Shown: positions 5,200 to 14,441, numbered from the stretch's first letter. The stretch is DNA of 64,000 bases from Polymorphobacter megasporae (GCF_018982885.2 NZ_CP081849.1:124001-188000), one strand, 5' to 3'. Notes: generated by a model not told the origin, from the letters alone. Numbers and translations are program-made.

Positions 5200-5463
5200 T
5201 TACTTTGGCGTCGGTTTTACATCGGTCTTGGTCATGGTCCCTGTCCCGGCGGCATCGGTCTTGGTCATCGTCGACTTATGCATCATCCGGTGGTGATAGT
5301 GATGATGGTGATGGTGATGATGAACGACCATGGGTTTTGGCTCGCTGGTTTCTTTCGTCGACATGGTGGTCGTAGTCGAGGTTGTTTTGTCCGCCATCTG
5401 CGCCATAGCAATGGCCGGCAGCCCGAGGGCAACGAAAGCAATCGTTAACAATGTCCGCTTCAT
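5200..5463 (-). CDS. Small secreted histidine-rich protein
   Basis: 87 residues: signal peptide MKRTLLTIAFVALGLPAIAMA, a Thr/Ser/Lys-rich stretch, then a His cluster VVHHHHHHHHYHHRMMH and repeated MTKTD units near the end. The His tract suggests divalent metal (Ni, Cu, Zn) binding in the periplasm; this is inference from composition. The ATG at 5463 is preferred over the TTG one codon upstream because GGGGAGA lies 5 bases before it. It is a single gene ending in a strong hairpin. I cannot assign a named family. Confidence 0.6.
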   Translation of the reverse strand: MKRTLLTIAFVALGLPAIAMAQMADKTTSTTTTMSTKETSEPKPMVVHHHHHHHHYHHRMMHKSTMTKTDAAGTGTMTKTDVKPTPK

Positions 5464-5469
5464 CAAAGT

Positions 5470-5966: not shown

Positions 5967-6291
5967 CCTTCGACGGCGCTAGCGTATATCTGTGTCCCAA
6001 TAATGCACAGGCGCGAAGACTGCTAACCTACTGATATAATCGGCAAATCCCTACCGCTACTCTGAGGGATTTCGGTACGGAAACCCTTAATAGTGTCGAT
6101 CATCTTGGTGGCTGGCGCCAGCTGCTCCAGCCCCCAGCGACGTCGCTCTACGATTGGCGGGACGGACGAGATGAGCCTCAACGAGGTCGAGCGAGCGCTG
6201 ATTTTAATTGGTTAACGTATGTTAGCGTTATTTCATGTGACGTTAAGATATGCTATTCTCGATAGACAAACATAAAGGGGATAGAATCGCC

Positions 6292-6894
6292 ATGAACCGT
6301 CTTATTTATGCCGCGTGTGTTGCTTCAATCACACTCACAGCCGCGCAAGCAGGCGCGTCGACGACGTTAATCGACTTCAATAACGGATCGGCCCCCGGGT
6401 TTTCCGGTAATTACAAGGTCACGTCGGGAACGGACGCGACGGCAGCCGCGCCAGTCATCAATGGCGTGCGCGACGAAACCAAGTATCTGGCTGTGCCTGG
6501 AACCGGTTCTTCGGGCAGCGCCTTCCTCAACGTCGGCGCACTTGGCGGTGGCAGCGTATTGACCCGTTTGAACGCCGACTGGGGCTCGATCGACAGCTAC
6601 AACACTTTGACGTTTTACGCCGGAAACACTCTCGTTCAGACGATCACCGGGAGCATGTTCCCGCCCGCAAACGGCGATCAGAGTGCAGCAGATACTAATC
6701 GTAACGTCACCCTCGATTTTAACCGCAATCTCGGGATTACTCGCGTAGGCTTCAGCTCGGGCCAGTTGGCTCTTGAACTCGACAACCTTTCAGTCGGAGC
6801 CGTTCCTGAGCCGGCAACCTGGGCCATGATGCTGCTAGGCTTCGGCATGGTCGGCGCTGCCACACGGCGTCGCTCCACAGCGGTTACTGCCTGA
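6292..6894 (+). CDS. PEPxxWA-CTERM sorting-domain exported protein
   Basis: 200 residues. It has the N-terminal signal peptide MNRLIYAACVASITLTAAQA and a Gly/Ser/Thr-rich beta-type middle. It ends in the C-terminal sorting region VPEPATWAMMLLGFGMVGAA followed by TRRR. That tripartite tail (PEPxxWA motif, hydrophobic segment, basic end) is recognised by exosortase-type systems and is typical of sphingomonads. The protein is probably surface-exposed or in exopolysaccharide. The start has AAAGGGG about 11 bases upstream, and the upstream spacer is AT-rich. It ends at a perfect hairpin (6902-6941). The specific function is unknown. Confidence 0.8.
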   Translation: MNRLIYAACVASITLTAAQAGASTTLIDFNNGSAPGFSGNYKVTSGTDATAAAPVINGVRDETKYLAVPGTGSSGSAFLNVGALGGGSVLTRLNADWGSIDSYNTLTFYAGNTLVQTITGSMFPPANGDQSAADTNRNVTLDFNRNLGITRVGFSSGQLALELDNLSVGAVPEPATWAMMLLGFGMVGAATRRRSTAVTA

Positions 6895-6901
6895 TTCAAG
6901 A

Positions 6902-6941
6902 CTGGCAGGTTGGAGCATTTCCGATCGCTCCAACCTGCCAG
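6902..6941. terminator. Bidirectional hairpin terminator
   Basis: A perfect 15-bp stem (ctggcaggttggagc and its complement) with a 10-base loop lies 8 bases after the PEP-CTERM stop and 127 bases beyond the end of the Fap-like operon on the opposite strand. A weak T-rich run follows on the plus strand. It is well placed to end transcription from both converging units. Confidence 0.7.
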
Positions 6942-7067
6942 CTATCTTACTCACTGGGCGTCTGCAGAACCAAGTTTGGCCACAAGCCGGTCCAACGTTG
7001 ACGTTGTCCTTGCTAGAGCAAAATGCCAGCTCGAGCTGCTTTTGGGTGCATGATCGACACCAGCGCG

Positions 7068-8402
7068 TCAGTTTCCGAAGGTAATTGGCAGCCGTAGCGT
7101 CGTTCTTACGTCGGCTGCGTCGCGTGTGGCACCCACTTCGACGTTCCAGTTGATCGTTGTCGCCGCTGCCGTTCGGTAGCTGACGCCGAATAAGAACCGC
7201 CCGATTTGAAGATCGCGCGTCGTCTGGTTGTAGGGTGTCGAGCCAGTCACAGCTCCGGTGCTGAAGCTCGTCTGGAGAATGCGGCCCTGGGTGCGCGTGC
7301 CAAACGACCAACTTTGGGCATAGCCAAATGACACCGCCACCCGCGGATTTAACGAGATGCCAATACCGGCGCTGCCTTGAACCGCATCGCCCGGCTTAAC
7401 ATAGTCGACCAACACGTCGTTCGCCAGCTGGACGCCATCAAAGCCGCGCCCAAAGTTGTGGGTGTATCCAAGCGATCCAAACAGCACCGCGGGATCCGAC
7501 GGCAATAGCGCTGTGATCGTTGGAGTTACGCCCCAAAAACCGCCACCGGTTGCCGAGGCGAGCGCGACGCCAGTGCCGGGGTCGCGCGGTGTCGTGAACG
7601 GATTCGTTCCAGTTGGCGAAACGACCTGCAGGCCACCGATCAAGATCGGGAAACCACGTGTCCCGCTTGTAATCTGATAACGTGCCCCAAACTCGATATC
7701 GCCGATATCGTGGCCCCGGGCCGCAACATTCGGGGTCGTTACGGCATTGGTTCCACCACCTCCGGTGGTAACAGGAGCCAAGACCGACGAGTCGGCCCGG
7801 TAAACGAACGGGGCGCGGACGTTCAGCTCAAGGCGCGAGGACAACCCGTAACGCGCTGCGATCGACGCAGTGACGATATCGGAGCGCGTCTCATTGATGT
7901 CGAACACACCGACAAGAACTGAGGTCGGTACTTCGATCCCCCGAAATATGACCGTATTGCGATCTGAGCGAGCGTATTCCAACGCGGGCTCAACGGTGAA
8001 TCGCCCGCGCCGGGTGATGATGCCGCCCTGCTCGGAAAGCACCGCCACCTCGGCTTGGCGCTCACGCGGTGCCGGGGCCTGGCCAACCGGCTGCGACTGA
8101 TCGGGCGCAGGCGCGGTCTGCGCGGTTTGCTGCGGCGAAGCCGTGCCTTGCGTCGGTGCCCCAGGGATAGGTTTGGGCGGATCAAGCTGCGCCTCTGCAC
8201 CGCGTGCACGCTGGGTGCCGAGGACCTGGTCCTCGAGTGCATGGAGCCTTGCTTTTGTTGAGGCTAGATCGGCCTCCTGACGGTCGACTTGAGCTTCGAG
8301 TGCCTGGATCTCAACAAGCGACGGCGCCGCTAAGCTAGAGGAAACGGTCTGGGCTCCCGCAGCACTGCCAGCGAGCAGGGCGGGGATAAGAATGCGATAC
8401 AT
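7068..8402 (-). CDS. FapF-like outer-membrane export pore (coiled coil plus beta-barrel)
   Basis: 444 residues. A signal peptide (MYRILIPALLAGSAAGAQ) is followed by a coiled coil near residues 25-60 (IQALEAQVDRQEADLASTKA). A Pro/Gln/Ala-rich linker comes next, and then about 320 residues of alternating aromatic/polar strands typical of an outer-membrane beta-barrel, including RFTVEPALEYARSDRN and IGDIEFGARYQITSG. It ends in a hydrophobic strand (LRLPITFGN). FapF of Pseudomonas has this layout: a trimerising coiled coil ahead of a barrel that secretes amyloid subunits. The gene is last of five on this strand, one base after the previous stop. Homology to FapF is inferred from architecture and operon position, not from alignment. 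Confidence 0.7.
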   Translation of the reverse strand: MYRILIPALLAGSAAGAQTVSSSLAAPSLVEIQALEAQVDRQEADLASTKARLHALEDQVLGTQRARGAEAQLDPPKPIPGAPTQGTASPQQTAQTAPAPDQSQPVGQAPAPRERQAEVAVLSEQGGIITRRGRFTVEPALEYARSDRNTVIFRGIEVPTSVLVGVFDINETRSDIVTASIAARYGLSSRLELNVRAPFVYRADSSVLAPVTTGGGGTNAVTTPNVAARGHDIGDIEFGARYQITSGTRGFPILIGGLQVVSPTGTNPFTTPRDPGTGVALASATGGGFWGVTPTITALLPSDPAVLFGSLGYTHNFGRGFDGVQLANDVLVDYVKPGDAVQGSAGIGISLNPRVAVSFGYAQSWSFGTRTQGRILQTSFSTGAVTGSTPYNQTTRDLQIGRFLFGVSYRTAAATTINWNVEVGATRDAADVRTTLRLPITFGN

Positions 8403-8403
8403 G

Positions 8404-9087
8404 TTAATGAACCACAATGGCGCGAGCGGCACTGGTCAGCGTCGATGCCAAGTTTGACGGCACCGGGATGCCGCGCAAATCGACACTGATCCAGGTCGTG
8501 GTGCTGATTGCTTGATTATTGCCGGTGTTTTGAATGACAGCGCCCGTCGCCTGCCCGATCATTTGCTGCACATCGAAGTTATTGCCCATAAGTTCTGAGG
8601 TAAACCCACCACTGGTCTGGCGCAACGCGACGCTGCCAAGCGCCGTGGCCACCGGCGTACCATTGGGCTGGACCGAGAGCGCAGTGCCCACGGTCGGCGG
8701 CAACGAGCCGCCAGTGCCGACGTTGAGCACGGCTGACGTCGGCGCTGGAGCCACCGTGATCAGCGTACCCGCGGCATTGCGGCTGTAGTCGACGACGGGC
8801 GCGGTGCTCCTGCTATCGGCTGCGACGGCACCGGTGGACGTCGCTGGGAGCCCGCCAGCGTAAACTTGCACCCCGGGCTGGCTTGTCGAGAACTGAGTAC
8901 GGAGCGCGACCACGCCATTGACCTGTGTTTCGATCGCCACCCCGATCGCAACATCGGTGCCGTCGGGAAGTCGGATGCCGCCGCGCATCGTCGCCAACTC
9001 GTAATCGGTGATAGTCGCGCCAAGCGGATGCGCTTCCGCGCTCGTGCCGCCAAAGAGGGTCGCAATAAGTAAGACAGCGCACTTCAT
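8404..9087 (-). CDS. FapE-like secreted protein with a double-glycine-type motif
   Basis: 227 residues. The signal peptide MKCAVLLIATLFGGTSAEA is followed at residues 26-37 by ITDYELATMRGG, which matches the LSxxELxxIxGG pattern of leaders cleaved by C39 peptidases. The rest is Ala/Gly/Thr/Val-rich and probably beta. A C-terminal block, QNTGNNQAISTTTWISVDL, resembles the ends of the two other substrates of the operon. The start overlaps the stop of the C39 peptidase gene (ATGA), implying translational coupling. In Pseudomonas the gene at this position, fapE, encodes a minor fibre component. The equivalence is inferred. Confidence 0.65.
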   Translation of the reverse strand: MKCAVLLIATLFGGTSAEAHPLGATITDYELATMRGGIRLPDGTDVAIGVAIETQVNGVVALRTQFSTSQPGVQVYAGGLPATSTGAVAADSRSTAPVVDYSRNAAGTLITVAPAPTSAVLNVGTGGSLPPTVGTALSVQPNGTPVATALGSVALRQTSGGFTSELMGNNFDVQQMIGQATGAVIQNTGNNQAISTTTWISVDLRGIPVPSNLASTLTSAARAIVVH

Positions 9088-9788
9088 ATGGCACCGGGTC
9101 CCGGTCTTGTCAGCGCGAGTGCTGCCTGGCTGATTGGCTCCATCGACAGAGTATTCCGTCCACCAGGAGATAAGGCAAGTTCAGACGCGCGACTGAACGA
9201 GGCGTGGGCTAGGTCGTCGCGACCATTAATCACAAACAGCACTCCGTTCCAGTGCTTGGCGAATTCGGCCACGGACATTCGCCGCAAACCCACGGCGGGG
9301 TCGCCGAGCAGCACTGCGGCCCCATCGATCCCCTTGAGCACGACGAAATGTTTGTAACCAAAGACATCTATCAACGCGATGCCGGGCAACCGCGCGTGTG
9401 CCACCTGCGCCAGCGTCACCTTGTAGCCGTCGGCGCTCATGTGGACACTGGCGAGAAACCGCTTCATGTCGAGCAACGAGAAGCCGAGCTTGCGGATCTG
9501 GTCTTTGTCGCCGTCGCGCCACATCCCGGCGAACGCGATTTTCTCGTCGACGGATTCGTCATAATGGTAGCGCAACAGAGTTGCCAACGCCGCCGACCCA
9601 CAGCTAAAATCATATTGCTGCCGAACGACGGTCGTGAATTTCTGCTCGAGCATTGAATGGACGGGATACCCCGCCTCGATTTGGCCACCATAGGTCATCG
9701 CCGTACCGCCCGAATTGACCTCGGCGGCGCAGCCCGGGAGCAGCGCCGCCACGGCAATAAGGGTTGTCCTACGGATGAACCGAAACAT
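9084..9788 (-). CDS. C39-family cysteine peptidase lipoprotein (FapD-like)
   Basis: 234 residues. The N-terminus ends in LLPGCAAE, a plausible lipobox with Cys20, so the enzyme is probably membrane-anchored in the periplasm. Catalytic elements of peptidase C39 are present: Cys63 in QQYDFSCGSAALATLL, His147 in GYKHFVVLKG and Asp163 in LLGDPAVG. C39 domains in peptide exporters cut after double-glycine leaders. In the Pseudomonas fap operon the stand-alone C39 protein FapD is needed for fibre export. The start at 9788 overlaps the end of the small upstream gene by 20 bases. It acts presumably on proteins of this operon. Confidence 0.8.
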   Translation of the reverse strand: MFRFIRRTTLIAVAALLPGCAAEVNSGGTAMTYGGQIEAGYPVHSMLEQKFTTVVRQQYDFSCGSAALATLLRYHYDESVDEKIAFAGMWRDGDKDQIRKLGFSLLDMKRFLASVHMSADGYKVTLAQVAHARLPGIALIDVFGYKHFVVLKGIDGAAVLLGDPAVGLRRMSVAEFAKHWNGVLFVINGRDDLAHASFSRASELALSPGGRNTLSMEPISQAALALTRPGPGAI

Positions 9789-10083
9789 TGACGTTAAGCG
9801 ATGAGCTGATCGCGACGTTGTTGCCCGTGTTGGCGCTGATGATCGCCAAGCCATTAAAGTTCGACAGCGCGTTATCGCTAATCGAGATAACGCCGGTAAT
9901 CGAGTTGCCGTTGACCTGGTTGTCGGTCAGTGTCGTAGCATTGGTCGCGCGGATTGCCTGCGCGATATCGGTCTTGCCTGCGACCTCGCCGAGTTCGGCG
10001 TCTGACACAGGCGGTCCCAATTGCGCCATCGCGGGCGCGCTCAGACCAAGGCCCGCCAACAGAATCAGTCTCAACGTGACCAT
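9769..10083 (-). CDS. Small FapA-like secreted protein
   Basis: 104 residues: signal peptide MVTLRLILLAGLGLSAPAMA, then VSDAELGEVAGK at residues 26-37. This sits at the same position as, and resembles, ITDYELATMRGG in the FapE-like protein. A repetitive Asn/Ser/Ile segment and a C-terminal ISANTGNNVAISSSLNVNV follow. FapA is thought to be a small chaperone-like protein guarding the amyloid subunits; here it could equally be a minor fibre subunit. It lies between the large repeat protein and the peptidase, 70 bases after the former. Confidence 0.65.
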   Translation of the reverse strand: MVTLRLILLAGLGLSAPAMAQLGPPVSDAELGEVAGKTDIAQAIRATNATTLTDNQVNGNSITGVISISDNALSNFNGLAIISANTGNNVAISSSLNVNVSVHP

Positions 10084-10152
10084 CTTAACGATCCTCGCGG
10101 TAGCGACGGGCGGAGTGGACCACGGCCCACTCCGCCCGCCGAGGCGTTGCGC

Positions 10153-11439
10153 TTAGCGAATGGTCAGCGTGCCGATCGACGGCGATACGTTGACCGCCGC
10201 GCTCTGCGAGGCGTTGGCGCCAGTGTTCACGTTCAGGCCCTGGATGCCGGCGAAACCGGAGAAGGACGATCCCGAGAAATTGACACTGTTGTTGACGTAG
10301 GCCCCACTGCCGCCTGCGGCCGTGCTGCTGCCAGGCGTACCCGTGCTGCTGAAGCCGGTCGTCCCCGGTGTGGCTGTGCCACCTTCACCGCCGCCGAGCC
10401 CGTACGTGACGGTGTTTCCCGTCACATAGCTCGCCAAGGTCGAAGAAGCGACCACCGAGCCGCCGCCGAACTGGTTCGACGTTGCCGCTGAACCGGCGGC
10501 GTTGGTCGTCGCCTGGCCGCCCGTCATCGACGAGTCGACATAACTCGCCGAACCGCCATTGGCGGTCGACCCACGGCCACTGTTCGAAAGACTGGTTGTG
10601 GTCGAATGGTCTGAGTTGTCAGTGGTATTGTAACCGCTGGCTCGGTTCGAGTTGTCAGTCGTGGTATTGAACCCCGTCTGGCGATTAGAGTTGTCAGTAT
10701 TGTAACCACTGGCACGGTTTGAAGCATCAGTCGTGGTATTGAAGCCGCTCTGATGGTTCGAATTGTCGGTCGCCGTGTTGTAACCGCTCGCACGGTTCGA
10801 AGCGTCCGTGCTCGTCTTCGTCGTGCTGACCGAGCGGTTACTGTTATCGGTGTTATAGCCGCTGGCGTTGTTCGAGTTGTCAGTGTTATAACCGCTGGCC
10901 CGGTTCGAGTTGTCGGTCGCAGTGTTGTAGCCGCTCGCCCTGTTTGACGCATCGGTGTTGTTCGTCGTCCGATTAGTCGTCGTGTTCACCGAACGATTCG
11001 AATTGTCGGTGTTATAGCCGCTGGCATTGTTGTTATAGCCGCTGGCGCGGTTCGAAGCATCGGTCGTTGTGTTGAACCCGTTCTTCGAGCTATTCGACGC
11101 GTCGGTGTTGGTCGACGTCGTGTTGTAGCCGCTGGCACGGTTAGATGCATCCGTGTCGGTCGTTGTGTTGTAGCCGCTTGCACGGTTCGACTGATCGGTA
11201 GCAGTCGTCGTGTTCGCGGTATTATAGCCGCTGGCGCTGTTCGCGTTGTCGTTATAGCCGCTCGCGCTATTCGAGTTGTCGGTCGCTGTCCGGTTGGTGA
11301 CAGGGTTGTACGACCCATTGGTCGAGTCATTGACCGGCTTGCTCGTGTTGTACGAGCCCGAAGTGTTGCTCGGCACCGTCTGCGCCGATGCCGCCGTAGC
11401 CAACAACGCCGCCATGGTTGTGAGAACGAATCTTGTCAT
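10153..11439 (-). CDS. Asn/Ser/Thr-rich repeat protein, candidate functional-amyloid subunit
   Basis: 428 residues. The signal peptide MTRFVLTTMAALLATAASA is followed by about 15 imperfect units of the form ASGYNTxTDxSNR (12 ASGYN and 3 GFN variants), roughly residues 50-300, then a Gly/Ser/Thr-rich part. A C-terminal block, GLNVNTGANASQSAAVNV, is shared in type with the two small operon proteins. Low complexity with regularly spaced Tyr/Phe, Asn and Gly resembles curli and Fap fibre subunits. An AGGAGG ribosome site precedes the ATG. It is the first and longest gene of the operon, as expected for the main subunit. Amyloid nature is inference. Confidence 0.7.
   Translation of the reverse strand: MTRFVLTTMAALLATAASAQTVPSNTSGSYNTSKPVNDSTNGSYNPVTNRTATDNSNSASGYNDNANSASGYNTANTTTATDQSNRASGYNTTTDTDASNRASGYNTTSTNTDASNSSKNGFNTTTDASNRASGYNNNASGYNTDNSNRSVNTTTNRTTNNTDASNRASGYNTATDNSNRASGYNTDNSNNASGYNTDNSNRSVSTTKTSTDASNRASGYNTATDNSNHQSGFNTTTDASNRASGYNTDNSNRQTGFNTTTDNSNRASGYNTTDNSDHSTTTSLSNSGRGSTANGGSASYVDSSMTGGQATTNAAGSAATSNQFGGGSVVASSTLASYVTGNTVTYGLGGGEGGTATPGTTGFSSTGTPGSSTAAGGSGAYVNNSVNFSGSSFSGFAGIQGLNVNTGANASQSAAVNVSPSIGTLTIR
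10600..11330 (-). repeat. Imperfect in-gene tandem repeats of the candidate amyloid gene
   Basis: The coding sequence is built from repeated blocks around gctggc/gctcgc..gttcga with gtgttgtagcc or gtgttatagcc on the plus strand, in units of about 39-60 bases encoding ASGYN(T)..SNR. Copies differ mostly at third codon positions, so repeat number could change by recombination without loss of frame when the unit length is a multiple of three. Confidence 0.7.
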
Positions 11440-11465
11440 GAGGACCTCCTGATTGCGTCTGCGGG

Positions 11466-11493
11466 CTATAAAAGTCCAACACGAAGAAATCAA
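11466..11493 (-). promoter_or_regulatory. Candidate promoter of the Fap-like operon
   Basis: On the minus strand TTGATT and TTATAG are separated by 16 bases. The -10 box lies 27 bases before the ATG at 11439, leaving room for a short leader with the AGGAGG ribosome site. It is the only good -35/-10 pair I see upstream of the operon. Confidence 0.4.
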
Positions 11494-11716
11494 GGTTTTT
11501 GTTAACGAATATTACCAATGAATTCAACGACAAGTAAAATGAGACTCGTAAACTGAGTGCGACTGGAGGCGTTTCCACCTAATTTATGGTTCATCGCCGT
11601 TGCGAGTCGACCTCTACCTATCGGTCGTGTCGACTATATCAAGAGATGGTAGGCCGTTATTGTTTGGCCGGTAGGTTGCTATTTATTTTGATCTGGTACG
11701 TCATTTGACTTGCTCA

Positions 11717-11959
11717 GAAACAGTTTGAGTATGGGTTGAAGCGGTGGCGCGGTCGTGATTCAAGCTTGGGATGTGGACCCGAGCGAGCCGTGGCCGGATG
11801 GCTGGATTTGAGCAGCGAGCGAAGCGCTGCCCGACCGACCTGACGGACGAGGAGTGGCGGTTTATCGAGCCGTTTCTGCCGCCCGCGCCAAAGCGAAGGC
11901 GCAAGCCGACGACGGATATTCGCGCGGTGCTCGACGCCTTGCGCTATCTTGCTCGGACG
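11717..11959 (+). mobile_element. 5' fragment of an IS5-family element
   Basis: The sequence closely matches the left end and first part of the intact IS at 59187-60083, including gattcaagcttgggatgtgg and the transposase start [20 protein letters not shown]. The frame stops matching at about 11959, where unrelated Tn3 transposase sequence begins. The left repeat is degenerate (gaaacagtttgagtatgg). Confidence 0.75.
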
Positions 11960-13092
11960 TGTGGTGCGATGGCTCCAATCTCGGGCTCGCGCGCATGGCT
12001 GAGGCGAGCCAGGGCGTCACACCCGACCAGCTCACCTGGACGCAATCGGCCTATATCCGCCCCGAGACCTACAAGTCAGCGCTCGCCCGGATCATCGACG
12101 CCCATCACGTACTGCCGATTGCGGCGGTGTGGGGCCAGGGCACCACCTCGTCGTCCGACGGCCAGTTCGTCCGCTCGGGCAAACGCGGCCAGGGAGCGGG
12201 CGAGGTCAACGCGCGCTACGGCGTCGATCCGGGCTTCTCGTTCTACACGCACGTCTCCGACCAGCACGGTCCCTACCACGTGAAGGTGATCTCGGCGGCG
12301 ACGCACGAAGCGCGTTACGTCCTCGACGGTCTACTCCATCACGGGACGGGCCTCGCGATCGACACGCATTACACCGACACCGGCGGCGCGACCGATCACC
12401 TGTTCGCGCTCTGCCGGATGCTCGGCTATCGGTTCTGCCCCCGCCTGCGCGACTTTCCCGATCGGCGTCTCGCGAGCTTCGAACCGGTGTCTCACTACCC
12501 GTCGCTCAAATCGATCATGGGGAAGCGGGTAAAGGTCGACGTGATCCGCGACCATTGGGACGAGGTCGTCCGGCTCGTCGCGTCGCTGAAGGCCGGCACC
12601 GTCTTGCCCTCGGCCATGCTGCGCAAGCTCGCCGCCTACGAACGGCAGAATCAGCTCGACCTCGCGCTCCAGGAAATCGGCCGCATCGAGCGGACCCTGT
12701 TCATGCTCGACTGGCTCGAAAGTCCGGCCCTCCGCCAACGGTGTCAGGCAGGGCTGAACAAGAGCGAGCAACGTCACGCCTTCACCGGCGCGATCTGCAC
12801 GTTCAAGCAGGGCCGCATTGCAGATCGGACCCACGAAGCGCAGCAGTTCCGCGCGTCGGGACTGAACCTCGTTATCGCCGCGATCGTCTACTGGAACTCG
12901 ACATATATCGCCGATGCGGTCGCCCACCTCCGCGCAATCGTCGAACCGGTGCCCGATGACTTGCTGGCCCATTTCTCCCCCGTAGGATGGAGTCACATCG
13001 CGTTCTCGGGCGATTTCCTGTGGGATCGCGCTGCTCGGTCCGGTGGCGGACGTCGACCGCTCAACATGTCTCGCCAACAACTTGCGGCGTGA
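11960..13092 (+). pseudogene. 3' part of a Tn3-family transposase, fused to an IS5 scrap
   Basis: From VWCDGSNLGLARMAEASQG to the stop at 13092 this is the C-terminal roughly 375 residues of a Tn3-family TnpA. Visible elements are GQGTTSSSDGQFVRSGKRG, YTHVSDQHGPYH (catalytic Asp region), HYTDTGGATDHLFALCRMLG and the terminal LLAHFSPVGWSHIAFSGDFL. The N-terminal 600 or so residues are missing and replaced by an IS5 5' end in another frame. The long reading frame that starts at 11854 inside the IS5 part is therefore an accident of the fusion. Confidence 0.8.
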
Positions 13093-13289: not shown

Positions 13290-13598
13290 CCTGCAGAGAT
13301 CCTTGGCTGCCCGATCGGGGCGGCGCCGAGAGAATCGTTGGCCACCGGACGGCGAGAATTGGGCGGAAGCGGCCAAGCGACGGCGCCGAGCCCCCTGCCA
13401 GCGCATGTGTGCGCATGTTGGCAAGTGTCTGTAGTTTCGGTTCGCCCCTGATGGCATTCGCAGGGTAGCCGAGGTCGATATACGCCCTCCGATGTCATAC
13501 GCGTTGCGCAATGGCTGCGATGCTCATAGCCTCTTACTGGCTTGGAGAAGATCGCCAGCAGAGGCGCACTCGGGCCGGGCAACAGGGGACGATCGCAC
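13290..13598. other. Intergenic, no gene seen
   Basis: About 310 bases between the integrase scrap and the B12-domain regulator. I see no domain, RNA gene or obvious operator. A ggcggcgccgag motif occurs twice (13320s and 13380s), a short imperfect repeat of no evident role. Confidence 0.35.
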
Positions 13599-14441
13599 AT
13601 GGCGTCAGTGCACGAAACGTCGGGAGTCACACCTTCTGGCTTCCAGTCGTATCCGCGAGAAGCCTCGCCGATACGCATGGCGCGGCTTATTGAAGGGGAG
13701 ATCATTCCACGCCTCCTGCTTGCGCACCGAAACGACGCAGCGACGCCACTGCGGCCATTGACCGTGCCCGCCACGATCAGTCGCGCCGATGCCGAAACGA
13801 TTGCCGGCATGACCCTGAAGGTGGAAGTCTTCGAACTGGTTGCTTATGCCGAGCGCTTTCTCGAACGTGGCGTTTCGATCGACTCAATCTACCTCGATCT
13901 GCTCGCGCCAGCGGCGCGCACGCTTGGGTCGTGGTGGGACAACGATATGTGCGACTTCGTCGACGTGACGATGGGACTATGGCGCTTGCAGCAGGTCGTC
14001 CACGAGATGGGGGTGCGCGCATCGTGTACGAGTGTGCGCACCCGCGCCGACCGAAGCGTGCTGTTCACCGTGCCGCCGGGCGACCAGCACAGTTTCGGCT
14101 TGGTGATGATCGAGGAGTTCTTCCGGCGTGCTGGATGGCGTACATGGAGTGCGCCCGACGCGGGACTGGCCGCTCTAAAGGCGATCGTCGGTCGGCAGTG
14201 GTTCGAACTTATCGGCCTAACGGTCAGCAACGTGGAACATGTCGCGAATATGCCGGATTTGATCCGCGCGCTGCGTGGAGCGTCGCAGAATCCCGCTGTC
14301 GGAGTGATGGTCGGCGGGCAAATCTTCAGCGAGAATCCCGCGCTAGCGGACGAAACGGGTGCGGACGCCACGGCGGCGGACGGCGCGTCCGCGCTGGTCG
14401 CGGCGGAGCGCCTCGTTGAACAGCTCAGTCGTCGTATCTAG
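13599..14441 (+). CDS. PpaA/AerR-like cobalamin-binding regulator
   Basis: 280 residues. The N-terminal MARLIEGEIIPRLLLAHR is characteristic of the PpaA/AerR family, which bind B12 and antagonise the PpsR/CrtJ repressor of photosynthesis genes in alphaproteobacteria. A helical cap (VEVFELVAYAERFLERGV, LGSWWDNDMCDFVDVTMG) precedes a Rossmann-like B12-binding domain with GDQHSFGLVMIEEFF, the DxHxxG cobalamin motif, and NPAVGVMVGGQIFSE. ATG 13599 has AGGGGAC 10 bases upstream; internal starts such as 13677 would give a short form as known for AerR. No photosynthesis or ppsR gene lies nearby. Confidence 0.75.
   Translation: MASVHETSGVTPSGFQSYPREASPIRMARLIEGEIIPRLLLAHRNDAATPLRPLTVPATISRADAETIAGMTLKVEVFELVAYAERFLERGVSIDSIYLDLLAPAARTLGSWWDNDMCDFVDVTMGLWRLQQVVHEMGVRASCTSVRTRADRSVLFTVPPGDQHSFGLVMIEEFFRRAGWRTWSAPDAGLAALKAIVGRQWFELIGLTVSNVEHVANMPDLIRALRGASQNPAVGVMVGGQIFSENPALADETGADATAADGASALVAAERLVEQLSRRI

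Follow-up and report, generated by a model that had tools for sequence, protein, structure and literature searches.

Our analysis of a window of Polymorphobacter megasporae DNA, by which we mean the whole stretch of 64,000 nucleotides (NZ_CP081849.1:124001-188000), points to a five-gene operon that would be a secretion system for an extracellular fibre and a sister branch of the Fap system, with leader removal by FapD and a low-complexity protein, here called rep, as the bulk subunit. We give this reading a probability of about 0.7. It builds on gene order, homologies, motif conservation, a short C-terminal unit, an RNA hairpin and purifying selection, all of which were established on the sequence itself.

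Results

Five near-contiguous genes occupy positions 7068-11439 of the minus strand, the strand of all operon features given below, in the order rep, small protein, C39 peptidase, secreted protein and barrel protein. Their coordinates bear out an earlier note on this DNA, which had described them as overlapping or nearly touching: the spacings in operon order are 69 bp (rep-small), -20 and -4 bp (small/fapD and fapD/fapE, with overlapping start and stop codons) and 1 bp (fapE-fapF). The first gene (10153..11439) stands in the fapC position and encodes rep, a secreted low-complexity repeat protein of 428 aa without Pfam or NCBIfam match and the presumed major fibre subunit. The small secreted protein (9769..10083; 104 aa) has a signal peptide, a leader-like motif and a C-terminal Fap-type unit. 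Sequence and model comparisons identify genes 3 to 5 as homologues of FapD (9084..9788; a C39 peptidase of 234 aa), FapE (8404..9087; a secreted protein of 227 aa) and FapF (7068..8402; a barrel protein of 444 aa).

The evidence for these three assignments differs from gene to gene. Gene 3 matches the NCBIfam FapD profile at 7e-49 and gene 5 the FapF profile at 1.2e-45, both under the curated equivalog cut-offs (330 and 700 bits, respectively). The FapD homologue carries the Cys, His, Asp and conserved Gln residues, with the catalytic Cys/His/Asp invariant among homologues, and its lipobox LPGC suggests a lipoprotein. The FapF homologue has a PTG motif and matches the solved Pseudomonas FapF in a sequence search of the PDB (2.3e-33). 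Its predicted structure shows the helix and barrel that had been anticipated, namely a coiled-coil helix at residues 28-71, a low-confidence linker and an outer-membrane barrel from about 132 to 443, and the top PDB matches are all FapF (5o67/5o65; TM 0.84-0.86 by target length). Next come the COG4313 outer-membrane channels (4rl8), which share the barrel fold, but are uptake channels with no associated C39 peptidase reported (PMC6173800). Gene 4 alone has no family match, and the NCBIfam FapE model does not match it; an alignment of its 83 homologues matches the canonical FapE profiles with 96% probability (E 4.7e-9), at a score of 69.6, where 20 column shuffles reach no more than 17.6. The profile matches, the FapF-like model and the FapE homology together back the proposal of a Fap-like export operon.

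The operon is conserved at short and long evolutionary distances. A near-identical copy (96.9% DNA identity) is found on plasmid p29334-1 (841,599 bp) of Polymorphobacter sp. PAMC 29334, and the window itself lies on a contig of 906,785 bases. The two copies differ by zero indels, and most substitutions are silent in each of the five genes, with dN/dS values of about 0.07 for rep, 0.18 for small, 0.03 for FapD, 0.2 for FapE and 0.03 for FapF; none of the nine amino acid changes in rep falls within its last ~140 residues. Purifying selection thus acts on all five genes. The genome has a single copy each of FapD and FapF. Among the matches listed, nearly all of ~88 related loci have the set small-FapD-FapE together with FapF, collinear or convergent, and almost all have an N/S/T/D/G-rich low-complexity protein immediately upstream of small. 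The five-gene arrangement is not due to chance.

The operon adjoins mobile-element remnants. The start of an IS4/5-type transposase and a Tn3 transposase (window 11771-13092) lie ~330 bases upstream of rep, and a Mutator/IS256-type transposase broken across two frames is found at 433-1682. A PEP-CTERM sorting protein (6250-6894) is convergent to fapF, and the Polymorphobacter plasmid has four PEPxxWA-CTERM genes there. A short histidine-rich secreted protein (HHHHHHHHYHH) is encoded on the minus strand at 5200-5466, and a B12-binding protein with a weak AppA-type match lies near the operon, at 13542-14438.

An N/T/S-rich region of rep holds 14-15 [AS]SGYN units (10627..11274). A regular expression finds 14 SGY/FN units, to which one KNGFN can be added, in line with the previous count of about 15. 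This repeat type occurs in the window lineage only, among 85 rep proteins, and the corresponding region differs entirely from lineage to lineage, the conserved portion being the final ~40 residues. The ASGYN region thus looks like a fast-changing, lineage-specific spacer. The repeats are indeed unlike those of FapB/FapC, as the earlier note had it, but they are not the Fap-related part of the protein, which is a single C-terminal unit of ~32 residues (GIQGLNVNTGANASQSAAVNV; 10183..10278).

This unit recurs in the operon. Profile-profile comparisons relate the C-terminus of rep to that of the small protein (95.8%, E 7.6e-9), where the unit spans residues 67-100 (9784..9885), and the C-termini of FapE to the small protein (82%, E 1.1e-5). 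The pooled unit aligns with the canonical FapB/C repeats over 30 ungapped columns (79%, E 1.6e-5; score 20.5, maximum 11.6 in 60 column shuffles), in an alignment that was gathered by pattern (G and N.G at a fixed distance), which favours alignable sequences, and that includes nine tandem copies from a single protein described below. Without this filter, the C-terminal alignments reach 30.5% for rep (E 5e-4) and 27.3% for small (E 7e-4), in both cases still above all of their own shuffles. An HMM of the unit, built from the sequences that it was then used to scan, finds exactly one unit in 76 of the 85 rep and 88 of 89 small proteins, and zero in shuffles. In 61/85 rep proteins the tail contains the looser pattern G-x4-N-x3-G, compared with 12% of shuffled tails; the window rep has it nowhere else. 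The published minimal Fap repeat expression X15GX4NX3GX6NX7 has no match in the window rep or small protein, and an HMM of the canonical repeat gives no signal on single rep and FapE sequences, with a weak group signal in small proteins only. Because single-sequence search and the minimal expression fail, the link between the rep unit and the FapB/C repeats rests on profile-profile comparison.

These observations could also be explained if the Fap-like machinery exported a non-amyloid, low-complexity surface coat, with the C-terminal unit of rep acting as a FapF secretion or anchoring signal instead of a cross-beta layer. The presence of exactly one, C-terminal unit in most rep proteins also suits a targeting signal; the disordered-looking N/S/T/D/G-rich sequence of the remainder and a C-terminal motif common to FapE and small speak for the surface coat as well. 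Yet, the unit aligns in register with the FapB/C repeats, and in a Rhodospirillales MAG the gene upstream of a rep-type operon (L098:3229-5436) encodes 735 residues that consist mostly of nine tandem Fap-type units, which better suit a structural layer. We regard the surface coat as unlikely, although far from negligible. The nine-unit protein is the clearest bridge from the single-unit rep to the multi-repeat FapC.

A strong RNA stem-loop follows the rep stop codon (10104..10141), as judged by its folding z-score. With mononucleotide shuffles, 72 of 84 loci fold with z < -2 over the 80 bases past the rep stop (median -3.57), compared with 8/84 after small. The 3' side of fapC in canonical operons behaves similarly (z < -2 in 14/16; L146, for which another gene's 3' side had been folded by mistake, is left out). 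There is no T run after the stem in the window, which argues for attenuation or mRNA protection, the likely role of the hairpin, rather than for full termination. An Rfam search over 6500-12500 found nothing.

The small protein had been taken for FapA. This does not hold: the FapA profile is unmatched by all five operon proteins and by 39 small proteins, and a FapB/C-like unit is present instead. Its predicted model has low confidence except for a leader helix at residues 28-35.

A candidate FapD cleavage site lies at the start of FapE. The leaders recognised by C39 peptidases have L-12, E-8 and L-7, with V-4 in a hydrophobic groove, and end in GG (PMC6363468). The motif ITDYELATMRGG of the window FapE (8977..9012) agrees with this rule, with a hydrophobic residue at -12, E at -8, L at -7, M at -4 and GG. 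Homologues of FapE show hydrophobic-xxx-E-L-xxx-R-G-G shortly after the signal peptide, with G at -2 in 84/85, G at -1 in 72, R at -3 in 76 and L at -7 in 82, counts that somewhat overstate conservation as they come from the best-scoring window under a motif-like rule. Two further checks carry less bias. The strict form of the leader occurs in 25 of 85 FapE, whereas other ORFs have it in 23 of 3000 cases, shuffles in 18 of 4250 and rep proteins in 0 of 85. A MAFFT alignment of 35 FapE, whose members were selected with a relaxed version of the motif, has L31, R35, G36 and G37 as its only invariant columns. FapE bears an apparently classic cleavage site for the Fap protease. Canonical FapE has the form L-x-D-x-E-L/M-xx-L/M-R-G-K/R, as in LKDQELAQLRG-K of Pseudomonas, and the exact scissile bond is uncertain because RG is followed there by K or R. 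Isolated weak matches of FapE to bacteriocin-leader families (Lactococcin, bacteriocin-like peptide) were not taken as evidence. The small protein appears, more weakly, to have a double-glycine leader motif as well (VSDAELGEVAGK; 9973..10008): its upstream positions fit the C39 rule, but it ends in GK, with K rather than G at -1, instead of GG, GA or GS at -2/-1, and in most sphingomonad small proteins the G precedes R, Q, K or M.

Previous work left open what FapD cleaves (PMC5557850, PMC6173800). Its Cys38 is required for FapC secretion, and N-terminal peptides were missing for FapE only among the Fap proteins; Rouse et al. 2017 judged the Fap proteins to be without canonical C39 sequences, yet saw GG and GA motifs in FapE and found N-terminal processing in FapE alone (PMC5557850). 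They also raised cleavage of FapF (PMC5557850), and FapD might act there, at a GG that immediately precedes the barrel, instead of on FapE or the small protein. A GG at the border of linker and barrel is indeed conserved, under a strict pattern, in 22 of 53 rep-type FapF, but it lacks the upstream -12/-8/-7/-4 residues and the pattern is present in 0/17 canonical FapF, whereas the FapE motif agrees with the C39 rule and is the sole invariant part of FapE. Cleavage of FapF as the function of FapD therefore seems clearly improbable to us.

A scan of species genomes for relatives of FapD gave at least 80 loci, the best of them mostly in sphingomonads. The others among the matches listed come from other Alphaproteobacteria, Gammaproteobacteria, Cupriavidus, Geotalea and a few MAGs labelled Nitrospirae or Ignavibacteria. 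In some sphingomonad loci (L018, L021) a sigma-54-type activator gene precedes a convergent fapF. We built a tree from FapF proteins, with type labels taken from the substrate genes, in which a single branch of support 100 splits 53 rep-type from 17 canonical proteins; the former were sampled by FapD similarity and the latter by FapB, so that intermediate types may have been missed. The rep-type side includes proteins of Gamma- and Betaproteobacteria and Geobacteraceae. The canonical side includes those of canonical fap operons that we found in three alphaproteobacterial genomes (L014, L157 and L158). By this tree, the window operon belongs to a separate FapF clade, sister to Pseudomonas Fap, which is common in sphingomonads and extends well beyond them.

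The tree bears on the idea that the operon is merely a canonical Fap operon that diverged in Alphaproteobacteria. Both types share the C-D-E-F order, homologous D, E and F proteins and a hairpin past the main subunit gene, as this idea would predict. But the alphaproteobacterial canonical operons, from the same class as the host of the window operon (L014 and L157 even from its family), have FapF in the canonical clade, the FapB, FapC and FapE of L014 are recognised by NCBIfam, and one genome (G558) has both systems together, which makes simple divergence very unlikely. Finally, the Acinetobacter-type Fil system (a putative pilus) shares a C39 peptidase beside a FapF-like barrel, and its FilB and FilC profiles do match the operon (1e-32 and 2.5e-12). 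Kinship with Fil is nevertheless almost certainly not the explanation, since these matches are far weaker than those of FapD and FapF, ten FilC proteins cluster on their own as a third group beside the two Fap types, and five Fil loci are without FapE, a convincing Fap-type unit or the leader motif.

Discussion

The product of the operon is probably a sticky fibre of the cell surface or of biofilms, exported by a Fap-type pore in the outer membrane. Secretion, proteolysis and the formation of fibres and amyloid are expected by analogy with the studied Fap system. All five products would reach the periplasm through Sec signals. Rep, small and FapE may cross the outer membrane unfolded, through a pore that the FapF homologue would form, with its coiled coil in the periplasm. 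FapD, as a probable lipoprotein, would recognise a leader helix in FapE (I-TDY-EL-AT-M-R-GG), perhaps also the one in the small protein, and removal of the leader may license or start export. Rep would be the bulk subunit, with its C-terminal unit as the likely stacking layer. The small protein has this unit as well and could serve to nucleate or cap the fibre. The ASGYN region would be a variable spacer that sets surface properties, and the hairpin past rep may ensure that more subunit than machinery is made.

The window operon and the Pseudomonas fapABCDEF operon agree in the order of their FapD, FapE and FapF homologues, with the main subunit gene upstream, and share Sec signals, a pore with coiled coil and barrel, and the hairpin past the main subunit gene; the C-terminal unit of the window operon is related to the FapB/C repeats. 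In contrast, the window operon is without FapA, a gene also absent from many canonical operons (PMC3792158), and where the canonical main subunit has three repeats its own combines a single unit with a lineage-specific spacer. Between this gene and fapD lies an additional one for a small protein with one unit, the FapE leader ends in GG rather than GK or GR, and FapF belongs to a separate clade. The bacteriocin-exporter C39 proteases LahT and ComA have the same peptidase family and leader rule (PMC6363468), but FapD is a stand-alone exported protein, outside any ABC transporter.

A bolder reading may be drawn from these comparisons. The operon would represent a second widespread Fap branch in which each subunit has a single layer and a freely evolving spacer, and FapE and the small protein would carry true double-glycine leaders that FapD cuts off, canonical Fap (RG then K/R) included. 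We hold this reading tentatively, at somewhat less than even odds. If true, it identifies the long-sought substrate of FapD, in canonical Fap as well. The C39 leader motif conserved near the N-terminus of FapE offers a direct test at little cost. A subunit made of one unit and an exchangeable spacer would, moreover, be a simple model from nature for engineering amyloid materials.

In a 2013 survey (PMC3792158), Fap was confined to Beta-, Gamma- and Deltaproteobacteria, and co-located fapD and fapF homologues were noted in five further phyla in 2018. Within the literature that our search covered, there was no paper on alphaproteobacterial Fap and none on Fil amyloid. The earlier note had seen here an alphaproteobacterial version of Fap with a new repeat. 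The Fap-like character stands, but the operon belongs to a separate and widespread FapF clade, and Alphaproteobacteria have canonical Fap too. Because the rep-type clade is widespread, its occurrence in Alphaproteobacteria is not unusual in itself. The Fap-type secretion family extends far past the three proteobacterial classes named in 2013.
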